Assembly (NCBI GenBank): GCA_017634555.1
Contig: JAGBNF010000035.1
Span: forward strand, 1 to 46,611
Direction of reading: 5' to 3'
Origin: Eubacterium sp.
GTDB lineage: Bacteria > Bacillota > Clostridia > Lachnospirales > Lachnospiraceae
Length of the DNA stretch: 46,611 nt
How positions within the stretch are numbered: position 1 is the stretch's first letter; each line of letters opens with the position of its first letter. The notes below the pieces were generated by a model, which was not told the DNA's origin, did no database searches, and saw nothing but the letters and a program-made list of their open reading frames with translations. The position numbers were made by a program, and so were the translations under genes. Below are positions 40,961 to 44,085 of the stretch, piece by piece.

Positions 40961-42973
40961 TTATTTTGCTGCTGCAGGAAGTTCATCCAGCTTATATTCA
41001 ATTGCAACCGCTTTGTTATTATGCTTGATAATAGCAATAAGGACAGCAACGAAAAGTATCTCAAATATCAATCCGCCTACAAATCCTGCACCAAGTGTAC
41101 CTGTTGTGATAAGTGTACCTACCTGATATACCAGGAAGCCTACTGTGAAGCCTGTTGCAAGCTGAAGACCGATTGCACCCCATAACCATTTTGCACTTCG
41201 CATTTCGGAATTCATTGCACCGAGCGCAGCAAAGCATGGCGGTGTGTAAAGGTTAAACATAAGGTATGCAAGTGCTGCAACCTTTGTGATTCCCATAGCT
41301 ACTGCAACCGCATTTCCCTCACCTACAAGCTCAAGCTCTTCAGGATCAACAAGGTTTGTGATCGCATAAACTGTAGCGATTGTTCCGACTACATTTTCCT
41401 TCGCAATGAAGCCTGTTATAGCTGCTGCTGCAAGCTGCCAAGCTGCAATACCTACGATAGGTACAAGGAGATATGAGAATGGTCCTGCGACAGATGCAAG
41501 GATTGATGTATCCTCCATTCCCTCTTCTACAACTTCGAAGCTCCAGTTGAAGGACTGCATTATCTGAACTACTGTATTACATACAAGAATAACTGTTCCG
41601 GCCTTGATGATGTAAGCCTTACCACGCTCAAGCATTGAAAGAAGCGCAAACTTAAGGCTTGGTACTTTATACTCCGGAAGCTCAATGATAAAGAATGACT
41701 TTCTAAATTTAGCTGCTGTGATAGCCTTGATAAGAAGCGCTCCGAGAAGCACAAGTGCTATACCAACCATATATGCTACCCAGCTTACCCATTTTGATTC
41801 AGGGAAGAATGCGCCGGCGAAAAGTGCGATAACCGGAAGCTTAGCTCCGCAAGGCATAAATGTTGCAAGCATCGCTGTTGCACGTCTTTCTCTCTCATTT
41901 TTGATAGTACGACATGCCATGATAGCCGGGATTCCGCATCCTGTACCGATTACCATAGGGATTACTGACTTTCCTGAAAGACCTACTCTCTTGAAGATAG
42001 GATCAAGAACTACTGTAGCTCTTGACATATAACCGCAATCCTCAAGAAGTGCGATAAGGAAATACATAACCATAACAAGTGGGAGGAATCCGACAACGGC
42101 ACCAACACCACCGATAATACCATCAACCAGGAGAGCATACAGAAGCGGATTTGCATCCTCCATCTTTTCTCCTACCCATCCCTGGAAGGATTCGATCCAT
42201 CCTGCCAGTATATCGGCAATCCATGTACCTACGGTTGTCTGTGATACATAGAATACAAGGAACATGATACCCGCAAAGATAAAGATACCGAGTATCGGGT
42301 GTGCGATTATCTTATCGATCTTATCGCCTATAGTCTTATCCTTTGTAAGAGTCTTACGCTTCTCAACATCCTTAACGATTCCCTTAACAAAGTCAAATCT
42401 CTTTCTGTCTGCCTTATCAACCTCTTCCTTGTTTGTAAGGTCTATATTTCCCTGAACATAAGGTGCCTTCTGTCCCTTACCGATAAGAGCTGCGGCAGCC
42501 TTAACAACGTCCTTCAGACCTTCATCAGAAGTTGAAACTGTTCTGATTACAGGACATCCGAGCTTCTCTGACAGCTTGTCGACATCAATCTTATTGCCCT
42601 TCTTATCATTCATATCACTCTTATTGAGTGCTACAACTACAGGAATTCCAAGTTCAAGCAGCTGTGTTGTAAAGAAAAGGCTTCTGCTCAGATTTGTTGC
42701 ATCAACTATATTAATTATCGCATCCGGGTTTTCATGCTTCACATAACTGCTCGTGATGCTTTCCTCCGATGTGAAAGGAGACATGGAATATGCTCCCGGA
42801 AGATCGACTGCTATGATCTCCTTGCTCCCTTCATTGTACTGTTTCTTAATCGGGCTCTCTTTCTTATCAACTGTAACGCCGGCCCAGTTACCGATTCTCT
42901 CCTTTCGACCGGTGAGAGCGTTATACATTGTGGTCTTTCCGCTGTTCGGATTACCCGTTAACGCGATTCTCAT
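40961..42973 (-). CDS. feoB: Ferrous iron transporter FeoB
   Basis: GTP-dependent Fe(II) importer of the inner membrane, 670 residues. N-terminal G domain: G1 GNPNSGKTT (7-15), NWAGVTV (G2 region), G3 DLPGAYSM, G4 NKSD, G5 VSTSDEG. Then the helical spacer and a membrane part with two gate repeats (FLPLVMVMYFLIALLEDCGYMSR, GTGCGIPAI, FMPCGAKLPV) and a second set ending in YTPPCFAALGAM. All key Cys are kept. Slightly shorter than the roughly 770 residues of E. coli FeoB, usual for Firmicutes. ATG 6 nt after AGGAGG. It lies 123 bp after feoA, with a hairpin in between. Confidence 0.97.
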   Translation of the reverse strand: MRIALTGNPNSGKTTMYNALTGRKERIGNWAGVTVDKKESPIKKQYNEGSKEIIAVDLPGAYSMSPFTSEESITSSYVKHENPDAIINIVDATNLSRSLFFTTQLLELGIPVVVALNKSDMNDKKGNKIDVDKLSEKLGCPVIRTVSTSDEGLKDVVKAAAALIGKGQKAPYVQGNIDLTNKEEVDKADRKRFDFVKGIVKDVEKRKTLTKDKTIGDKIDKIIAHPILGIFIFAGIMFLVFYVSQTTVGTWIADILAGWIESFQGWVGEKMEDANPLLYALLVDGIIGGVGAVVGFLPLVMVMYFLIALLEDCGYMSRATVVLDPIFKRVGLSGKSVIPMVIGTGCGIPAIMACRTIKNERERRATAMLATFMPCGAKLPVIALFAGAFFPESKWVSWVAYMVGIALVLLGALLIKAITAAKFRKSFFIIELPEYKVPSLKFALLSMLERGKAYIIKAGTVILVCNTVVQIMQSFNWSFEVVEEGMEDTSILASVAGPFSYLLVPIVGIAAWQLAAAAITGFIAKENVVGTIATVYAITNLVDPEELELVGEGNAVAVAMGITKVAALAYLMFNLYTPPCFAALGAMNSEMRSAKWLWGAIGLQLATGFTVGFLVYQVGTLITTGTLGAGFVGGLIFEILFVAVLIAIIKHNNKAVAIEYKLDELPAAAK

Positions 42974-43096: not shown

Positions 43097-43318
43097 TCAG
43101 CCTTCGATCTCTATAGCTTCCGCCAGTTCCTTATCGATGTTATATCTGGCATCCTTGATCGATACCACAAGATTATTCTTCTTCCTGTCAACTACTGTAA
43201 TGCTCTCTCCGCTATAACATCCCAAAGAAAAAAGAAAGCTCTCCATTTCATCGTCTCCGCCCGTATTAATGGCGGAAATAATATATTCCTTACCAAGATC
43301 TGCTACATTTAAATTCAT
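43097..43318 (-). CDS. feoA: Ferrous iron transport protein A
   Basis: 73-residue SH3-like FeoA protein, cytoplasmic partner of FeoB. Seen: LNVADLGKEYIIS start, the DDEMESFLFSLGCYSGESITVV centre (FeoA L-x-LG-hydrophobic region), and NLVVSIKDARYNIDKELAEAIEI at the end. Ribosome site AAAAGGAG 7 nt before ATG. It is the first gene of feoAB, under the 43340-43391 promoter. Confidence 0.93.
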   Translation of the reverse strand: MNLNVADLGKEYIISAINTGGDDEMESFLFSLGCYSGESITVVDRKKNNLVVSIKDARYNIDKELAEAIEIEG

Positions 43319-43339
43319 GTTTAAACTCCTTTTAATTGC

Positions 43340-43391
43340 GTTATATATATCTAACCTAACTTAATTTAATATAATACGCTCAAAATGTCAA
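43340..43391 (-). promoter_or_regulatory. feoAB promoter and operator
   Basis: On the minus strand TTGACA (43386-43391), 17-nt spacer, weak -10 TAAATT (43363-43368), 7 nt, then GTTATA-TATA-TCTAAC (written on the plus strand, 43340-43355), one mismatch from a perfect palindrome. The spacing equals that of the two sister promoters. The weak -10 box suggests lower output than the small RNA promoter. Confidence 0.72.
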
Positions 43392-43394
43392 CTG

Positions 43395-43461
43395 TTTTAT
43401 TAAGAAAAACTCCCGATTTTATTAAGAAAAACTCCCGATTTTTATTAAGAAAAACTCCCGA
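43395..43461. repeat. Three tandem copies of a 22-nt terminator arm
   Basis: Copies at 43395-43416, 43417-43438 and 43439-43461 (the last with one extra T). On the minus strand each reads TCGGGAG, T run, CTTAATAAAA: the 3' arm and T tract of the small RNA terminator. Only the third copy lies next to the 5' arm. No spacers, so it is not a CRISPR. Confidence 0.85.
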
Positions 43462-43483
43462 GCCGTATATACAGTTCGGGAGT
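43441..43483 (-). terminator. Terminator of the putative small RNA
   Basis: 8-bp stem ACTCCCGA/TCGGGAGT (minus strand; plus positions 43476-43483 and 43454-43461) with a loop holding GTATATAC, then TTTTTCTTAAT. Two further copies of the 3' arm follow and could act as back-ups. Confidence 0.8.
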
Positions 43484-43556
43484 CATCAAAGGAGTTTATC
43501 TATAACTAATCCGCGAGGATTTAGTTATCTGGAATTCGTGTTAGATACCTCTAACG
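43445..43556 (-). ncRNA. Candidate metal-regulated small RNA (about 110 nt)
   Basis: A strong minus-strand promoter (TTGACA-17-TATTAT) leads into a stretch without any open frame that ends at a clear terminator before the feoA promoter. From the predicted 5' end it holds the operator palindrome (43540-43555, able to fold), a near-perfect 11-bp hairpin (43502-43512 with 43517-43528, one bulge), then a probably unpaired GATAAACTCCTTTGATG (43484-43500), then the terminator. CTCCTTT is complementary to Shine-Dalgarno sites. The form is that of base-pairing small RNAs such as Fur-controlled FsrA, but no homology to a known RNA is recognised. Alternative: an attenuated upstream leader of feoAB. Confidence 0.6.
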
Positions 43557-43591
43557 CAATATATAATACATTTTATCTAAGGATTTGTCAA
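43540..43591 (-). promoter_or_regulatory. Promoter and perfect operator of the small RNA
   Basis: Minus strand: TTGACA (43586-43591), 17 nt, TATTAT (43563-43568), 7 nt, then the perfect 16-bp palindrome GTTAGA-TACC-TCTAAC (plus-strand reading, 43540-43555). It is the best of the three sites in the iron locus. The -35 box overlaps that of the divergent GIY-YIG gene. Confidence 0.78.
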
Positions 43592-43614
43592 CAGTAAATC
43601 ATATACTGTATAAT
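43585..43614 (+). promoter_or_regulatory. Promoter of the GIY-YIG gene (leaderless)
   Basis: TTGTCA at 43585-43590, 18-nt spacer, consensus TATAAT at 43609-43614. Only 6 nt separate the -10 box from the ATG at 43621, so transcription should begin at or next to the start codon. No ribosome site is present. Confidence 0.6.
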
Positions 43615-43620
43615 CTCCTT

Positions 43621-44085
43621 ATGAATTACGACATTATATTCCTTCAGACAACATCAATAATTCTGGTGCTGGCAATCCTCATTGTCATTCACAGCTCTCT
43701 TCACCCTTCCCTCGGAAGCATCATAAAGCATTCCAACTGGATCTCCGCGGAAAGATTTCTTGCTATGCGAAATGTGCGGAATAAGAACAACCGTCTCGCC
43801 AGTGAGAAATATAATGTAAAGGGCGTCTATATACTGCACAATCGCAGCAAGCATAAATACTATGTCGGTCAGGCACATAAACTCCTATCAAGAGTAAACG
43901 GCCACCTGACAGGCAAGGGCAACGGAAATGTTTACGCTGACTTCGCCTACGGTGACCGCTTCTACGTTAAGTTCCATCGTTTCAGAGGCAAAGCCTTCAA
44001 AACCTTAAATGAAATGGAACGCTATTATATTACAAAGTATCACGCCCAGGAGGACGGATATAACAAAACTATCGGGAATCGCTGA
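43621..44085 (+). CDS. Membrane-anchored GIY-YIG domain protein
   Basis: 154 residues: a membrane segment (about 11-25), a basic linker, then a GIY-YIG nuclease-type domain from about residue 66. Motifs: GVYILHN (GIY part, 68-74), YYVGQ (YIG part, 80-84), Arg91 in SRVNGH, Glu131/133 in NEMERYYI and Asn148 in GYNKTIGN. Such stand-alone domains are of unknown role; a membrane anchor is unusual for a nuclease. The ATG at 43621 lacks a ribosome site and lies 6 nt after a TATAAT, so a leaderless start is likely. Its 3' end overlaps the convergent MATE gene by 17 bp. Confidence 0.82.
   Translation: MNYDIIFLQTTSIILVLAILIVIHSSLHPSLGSIIKHSNWISAERFLAMRNVRNKNNRLASEKYNVKGVYILHNRSKHKYYVGQAHKLLSRVNGHLTGKGNGNVYADFAYGDRFYVKFHRFRGKAFKTLNEMERYYITKYHAQEDGYNKTIGNR

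Follow-up and report, generated by a model that had tools for sequence, protein, structure and literature searches.

A putative small RNA on the minus strand of the window (the whole stretch of 46,611 nucleotides analysed here), upstream of feoA, is probably a base-pairing RNA that is induced by metal starvation and acts on Shine-Dalgarno sequences. Comparison among relatives lends good support to a conserved small RNA that is linked to feo and carries an anti-Shine-Dalgarno segment, and that would be present in 24 genomes in three arrangements. The conserved module, its structure, the dyad at its start point, and the association between the element and complementary target sites were all computed here. 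The parts of the window that matter are as follows.

43563 to 43591, minus strand: promoter P1, with -35 TTGACA at 43591-43586, -10 TATTAT at 43568-43563 and a spacer of 17
43540 to 43555, minus strand: dyad GTTAG-N6-CTAAC, GTTAGAGGTATCTAAC, at the start point; putative DtxR-family operator
43450 to 43557, minus strand: putative small RNA of ~108 nt; ends predicted, homologues in relatives
43502 to 43528, minus strand: 5' hairpin of the RNA (predicted fold)
43485 to 43499, minus strand: 15-nt CU-rich seed AUAAACUCCUUUGAU, invariant in 24 genomes
43450 to 43483, minus strand: intrinsic terminator, stem 43483-43454 plus five T at 43454-43450 (predicted fold)
43363 to 43391, minus strand: promoter P2 of feoA, with -35 TTGACA at 43391-43386 and -10 TAAATT at 43368-43363; 10/12 consensus
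43322 to 43332, minus strand: feoA Shine-Dalgarno region AAAGGAGTTTA, 11 nt complementary to the seed
43097 to 43318, minus strand: feoA (Pfam FeoA)
40961 to 42973, minus strand: feoB (NCBIfam feoB)

An earlier note on this DNA had proposed an iron-linked small RNA at this position, citing a consensus promoter, an internal hairpin, a Rho-independent terminator, and a separate promoter for feoA, and these parts are borne out. P1 (TTGACA-17-TATTAT, 43591-43563) agrees with the consensus at 11 of 12 positions, and its hexamers and 17-nt spacing recur in the homologue of a relative, G053; in the window as a whole, promoter-like matches are not above chance (12 found vs 11.3 expected from shuffles). 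The hairpin lies exactly at 43528-43502, the terminator stem is followed by its run of five T, and P2 (43391-43363) provides the separate match. A simple terminator scan of the window did not list the terminator at 43483-43450, presumably because of an internal loop in the fold. The note had also seen no reading frame behind P1. A 13-codon open reading frame does start inside the RNA, although several relatives have no ATG after the GAT, and a peptide product was rejected because this short frame is not kept in relatives. The dyad GTTAGAGGTATCTAAC (43555-43540), which overlaps the start point, was absent from the note.

The interval from the RNA to the feoA promoter holds three tandem copies of a 22-nt unit (window 43395-43461) that consists of the terminator 3' arm plus the T run; these tandem copies are absent from G053. 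A divergent open reading frame (43585-44085, plus strand) encodes a GIY-YIG domain after a hydrophobic N-terminus and has a relative at the equivalent place in G053.

A 117-nt version of the RNA folds at -36.3 kcal/mol, compared with -20.3 +/- 3.6 in 200 shuffles (z -4.5). The CU-rich stretch that the note described as unpaired is indeed present at 43499-43485, but in the minimum-energy fold of the window copy it is partly paired with the 5' end of the RNA. It is predicted to be unpaired in most of the seven versions folded: the mean unpaired probability of the seed is 0.33 in the window copy and 0.61-0.95 in six relatives. In its own predicted fold, the window copy therefore has a largely masked seed.

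Pattern searches found the exact sequence ATAAACTCCTTTGAT, as part of the element, in 24 of 61 genomes of the genus. The element lies after feoB in 18 genomes, upstream of feoA and behind a promoter of its own in two (the window and G053), and on its own in four. The distance from the feoB stop is 2-71 nt in the 11 copies measured, and the remaining after-feoB copies were placed by the feoB end visible in the sequence. The anti-Shine-Dalgarno stretch stressed by the note is conserved in relatives: the seed is identical in all 24 copies, and a hairpin comes after it in every one of them. The T run after this hairpin is poor in some copies (for example G004, G027, G028, and G056), G040 and G041 have no clear separate first hairpin, and in the stand-alone copies the first hairpin is made by the dyad. 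Among genus genomes with a clear feoA match, 22 of 26 carry the element (the FeoA match of G032 was weak and was excluded). It was not found in the feoA-bearing genomes G003, G017, G023, and G026, of which G023 has a contig that ends beside feoA, and it is present without a feoA match in G009 and G022. It is missing from all nine of the feoB 3' regions that were taken from other genera.

BLAST of the region against the 61 genomes returned, besides itself, one homologue, in G053 (84% identity over 143 nt, likewise upstream of feoA); matches in G014 and G023 were rejected as promoter-like letters only. A covariance model (R1) made from G053 and G000, the window's own genome (an assembly of 2.33 Mb, 72% complete), matched 8 of the 61 at E up to 1. 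Its weak matches in G008, G031, and G042 (E 0.008-0.02) were kept because they sit just after feoB, while matches L115, L116, L117, and L119 and an opposite-strand match in G000 were set aside. A pattern consisting of the dyad, a gap of 20 to 50, and CTCCTTT matched 10 genomes, with the element in G000 and G053 only; two of the other eight were inspected (L062 and L068), and the match in L062 was found to be a dyad, a hairpin, and a dyad before a flavodoxin locus. A stricter pattern applied across contigs matched the G053 contig and one Chitinophagaceae contig. Family-wide, the exact 15-mer occurs in 7 of 397 genomes, including the window's own, and the short flanking stretches in the six others, judged from letters alone, hold no obvious element. 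An exact seed complement in G057 was not counted as an element; it sits at the start of a gene that we take to be YbeY-like. Loci L210 (G053) and L211 (G000) have a conserved stretch containing GTCAAAGGAGTTTATTGACACCTGTAAAC, with no evident start codon there.

The note's own alternative was a prematurely terminated leader of feoAB. A leader or attenuator of this kind in the window would suit the place of the element, downstream of a promoter with a dyad and ahead of feoA on one strand, but feoA has its own promoter match in P2, and no alternative fold is common to G000 and G053. The reading fits poorly because relatives carry the module as a feoB 3' end or as a stand-alone gene (22 of the 24 genomes), and we regard it as hardly credible.

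The 15-mer is an invariant block when 15 of the 18 feoB 3' copies are aligned (G009, G040, and G041 were omitted). In the stems around it, 37 cells are changed on both sides, compared with 13.9 in shuffles, and 88.9% of cells are paired, compared with 82.2% when shuffled and 31-52% when slid; the two stems scored came from one of the aligned sequences. Compensatory changes, which the note had suggested looking for in the hairpin stem, are thus present in the corresponding hairpin of the feoB 3' copies. Between G000 and G053, there are three changes at paired positions, each of which keeps a standard pair, and the block around the CU-rich stretch is identical. These data bear on the idea that the module is no more than a usual terminator region, in which something else, such as the binding of a protein, keeps the 15-mer constant and any pairing with start sites is incidental. 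Such a region could account for the 18 of 24 copies that are feoB 3' ends, and anti-Shine-Dalgarno-like letters weakly match many start sites. However, the stems vary in sequence and the 15-mer does not, six copies have their own promoters, and the coupling at feoA2B2 and feoA extends beyond the anti-Shine-Dalgarno core, making this explanation very unlikely.

This coupling was seen by comparing genomes with and without the element. The complement of the seed, AUCAAAGGAGUUUAU, is an extended Shine-Dalgarno sequence. The candidate lead partner, feoA2B2, encodes a fused second ferrous transporter elsewhere in the genome and has a strong match (E below 1e-27) in 54 of the 61 genus genomes. The median energy for the 15-mer at the feoA2B2 start is -15.6 kcal/mol in 23 element genomes vs -6.7 kcal/mol in 29 others (p 7e-7). 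A flank test kept the anti-Shine-Dalgarno core fixed and compared 105 orderings of the seven flanking letters; the true flanks rank 1/105 for feoA2B2 in element genomes, beating 104 of 104 permuted versions, and 30/105 in the others. The feoA start gives -13.45 (22 genomes) vs -7.1 kcal/mol (31), with the true flanks again ranking 1/105, in a comparison whose negatives are mostly from other genera; within the genus alone, with L025 dropped, the contrast of 22 vs 4 is not significant (p 0.10). The intended control, feoB1, is also stronger in element genomes (-12.2 in 21 vs -9.25 in 28, rank 5/105), and is either a lesser target or a case of shared composition. Unrelated start sites have means of -7.9 (n=201) in element genomes and -8.1 (n=97) in the rest, and their true flanks rank 3/105 in both groups with a margin of ~0.35 kcal/mol, against a background that is itself enriched for pattern matches because the loci were fetched around such matches.

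Individual genomes depart from this correlation in both directions. G020, G022, G041, and G042 have the element and weak feoA2B2 sites, and G019 and G060 have strong feoA2B2 sites and no known element; some element absences may be assembly gaps. For the feoA2B2 pairing, no start was found in G023, G037 is missing from the coupling test (-16.2 in an earlier calculation), and the start positions in seven genomes differ between the per-genome listing and the coupling test. On a FeoB2 tree of 29 genomes (29 of 30 rows, drawn from the 54 FeoA2B2 genomes; G021 was too short), the element is scattered, with 8 changes vs a shuffled mean of 7.8, four of them forced by well-supported branches. Common descent from a single ancestor therefore does not account for the coupling.

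The complementarity at feoA itself raises the question of feedback in cis only, with a 3' UTR or upstream RNA pairing with the feoA Shine-Dalgarno sequence of its own feoAB operon. Most element genomes do have complementary feoA start regions, some with two sites (L061 was dropped from this survey of feoA leaders), and 18 of the 24 copies form the 3' end of feoB. Yet the coupling is stronger at feoA2B2, which is encoded elsewhere, four copies stand alone beside a repressor gene, and the feoA sites of G020 and G027 are weak. We consider cis feedback alone unlikely.

For the base-pairing RNA that we favour, further candidate partners come from matches to the seed complement with at most one mismatch. 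When such matches outside the element are compared between the 24 element genomes and genomes without a known element, 15 of 38 and 4 of 30, respectively, sit at a start codon (Fisher p 0.016). The 15 comprise feoA2B2 (4), mntP (3), an [FeFe] hydrogenase gene (1), a nifH-like gene (1), an ArsR-family gene (1), and five others, namely a PTPS-domain gene, a gene for one enzyme (presumably formate-tetrahydrofolate ligase) that is matched in two genomes, a gene that we take to be MraY-like, and an ABC transporter. The mntP sites are in G029, G040, and G047, and G043, which has no known element, also has one. A thioredoxin-like [2Fe-2S] ferredoxin gene ~3 kb from the matched [FeFe] hydrogenase gene has a further site. 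In G000 and G053, a shorter complement does not match more often than its reversed control. The six duplexes examined in G000 have energies of -21.1 (nifS), -20.7 (feoA2B2), -19.6 (a hydrolase-like gene), -14.8 (nifH-like), -13.8 (feoA), and -12.8 kcal/mol (feoB).

The note had cast the RNA as an analogue of iron-controlled small RNAs that block the translation of iron-using proteins. What stands is the conserved feo-linked element in 24 genomes. The iron-using targets hold only in part, since the best-supported partners, feoA2B2 and feoA, are transporters, and sites at Fe-S genes (nifH-like, [FeFe] hydrogenase, [2Fe-2S] ferredoxin, and nifS) are predicted in one to three genomes each; Fe-S enzymes may nevertheless be among the targets.

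The dyad suggests how the RNA could be controlled. The 2.33-Mb G000 assembly and G053 have four perfect GTTAG-N6-CTAAC sites each; the reversed-pattern control has no match in G000 and two in G053. The shorter TTAG-N6-CTAA is found at most 200 nt upstream of feoA at 32 of 52 usable Lachnospiraceae loci, compared with 0.29 expected from mononucleotide shuffles (22 of 28 loci in other genera and 10 of 24 within the genus; L025, L038, and L050 were left out). This distribution makes control by a metal-dependent repressor, including control of P1, likely, and the dyad would then be a DtxR-family operator. All six element copies with their own promoter have a perfect dyad at the 5' end, and each of the four stand-alone copies lies divergently to a DtxR-family gene.

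Other dyads precede a variety of genes. In G053, further perfect copies are found ahead of a DUF3793 gene and ahead of a small cysteine-rich gene, whose window counterpart has no Pfam or NCBIfam match; in G000, one is found ahead of a Trep_Strep-family membrane gene. Other sites, not clearly at promoters, lie near what we take to be a methionine-aminopeptidase-like gene (G000 and G053) and upstream of a presumed rubrerythrin-like gene. The methionine-aminopeptidase-like gene has a SEC-C motif and a perfect dyad upstream in both G000 (L074) and G053 (L079); in G031 (L201), such a gene has two near-matches to the seed complement upstream. At L062 (G005), L073 (G053), L056 (G056), and L059 (G023), a dyad, a strong hairpin, and a second dyad precede flavodoxin/DUF3793 genes or feoA. 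No second promoter is evident at L062 or L073, where an attenuator between two operators is possible. In the feoA leaders L058, L060, L039, L048, and L047, a longer hairpin with a T run behind it encloses the dyad at the expected start point, and operator and early terminator appear to coincide.

The same base-pairing RNA could respond to manganese, through MntR-type control, rather than to iron. The DtxR-family genes of two stand-alone cases were tested, and both repressors score best against MntR models in NCBIfam, albeit below cut-off; the mntP start-site matches point the same way. Conversely, the dyad is found upstream of feoA across the family, a G053 dyad precedes a DUF3793 gene, the neighbour of flavodoxin in L062-type loci, and both repressors contain both Pfam Fe_dep_repress domains, though these also cover MntR. 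A manganese signal therefore seems rather improbable to us, and iron would be the controlling metal.

In the mechanism that we propose, an RNA of ~108 nt would be transcribed, from its own promoter with a DtxR-family operator at the start point, when ferrous metal is scarce. Its 15-nt seed, if accessible in the cell, would pair with the Shine-Dalgarno region of an mRNA, cover it, and block ribosome entry; the position of the target sites suggests repression as the direction of the effect. The lead partner would be feoA2B2 and the next feoA, followed by the candidates mntP, nifH-like, [FeFe] hydrogenase, and nifS. In most element-bearing relatives the module would form the 3' end of the feoAB transcript, and in four it would be a stand-alone gene beside the repressor gene. 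A possible logic is a switch between the two ferrous transporters together with feedback on feoA and the sparing of some Fe-S proteins. Against this, it is not obviously sensible for a low-iron RNA to repress an iron transporter. More tentatively, and with some doubt, there may be one DtxR-controlled family with three positions and one seed, whose main task is to switch between FeoAB and FeoA2B2 and not to spare iron. A recurrent 15-nt stretch beside iron genes that matches the ribosome-binding site of a second transporter points to an undescribed control of metal use. If the proposal is right, the Lachnospiraceae would have a metal-responsive small RNA whose seed is defined and whose lead target can be tested, and the module would clearly illustrate how a single small RNA can serve both as an mRNA 3' end and as a free gene.

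A search of Rfam 15 with the whole window returned only two tRNAs at the gathering score; for window 43380-43640 at E up to 5, the best match is below the gathering score and chance-like, and eight related loci gave no family at the gathering score, RyhB included. RyhB and PrrF follow an iron-starvation logic, which the present element would share, and differ from it in that neither the window nor the eight related loci has an Rfam match. In the open PMC literature, no paper was found on feoB with a small RNA and iron in Lachnospiraceae or on feoB with a 3' UTR and a small RNA, and the matches for Butyrivibrio small RNAs and iron were unrelated by title.

Closer parallels are found among Gram-positive bacteria. 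As described in passages of one article, FsrA of Bacillus subtilis binds Shine-Dalgarno sequences via a C-rich motif, and IsrR of Staphylococcus acts on the mRNAs of iron enzymes (PMC9410917). Both are metal-starvation RNAs with C-rich single-stranded stretches that pair with Shine-Dalgarno sequences (PMC9410917), and our candidate would resemble them in this. They are Fur-controlled, whereas the dyad of the window element would be of the DtxR type; the window element also differs in sequence and locus (from FsrA, as judged by description), in its single 15-nt seed, and in having ferrous transporters as lead partners. For MrsI of Mycobacterium tuberculosis, the same passages give a predicted control by IdeR, an iron repressor of the DtxR family (PMC9410917); our candidate would share this type of control, while MrsI comes from a distant phylum. 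The table of a 2022 review lists the cognate small RNA of DtxR as 'none reported' (PMC9294342). RsaC of Staphylococcus aureus, as the relevant passages describe it, is a small RNA produced from the 3' UTR of the mRNA for a metal transporter, with control by MntR, a repressor of the DtxR family (PMC9438474, PMC9294342). The 18 of 24 element copies in the feoB 3' position, before a hairpin, are similar in kind, while the window copy lies instead upstream of feoA. RsaC is described as 584-1116 nt long, targeting sodA, and belonging to mntABC; in contrast, the present module is ~60-110 nt, belongs to feoAB, and also occurs as a gene with its own promoter.
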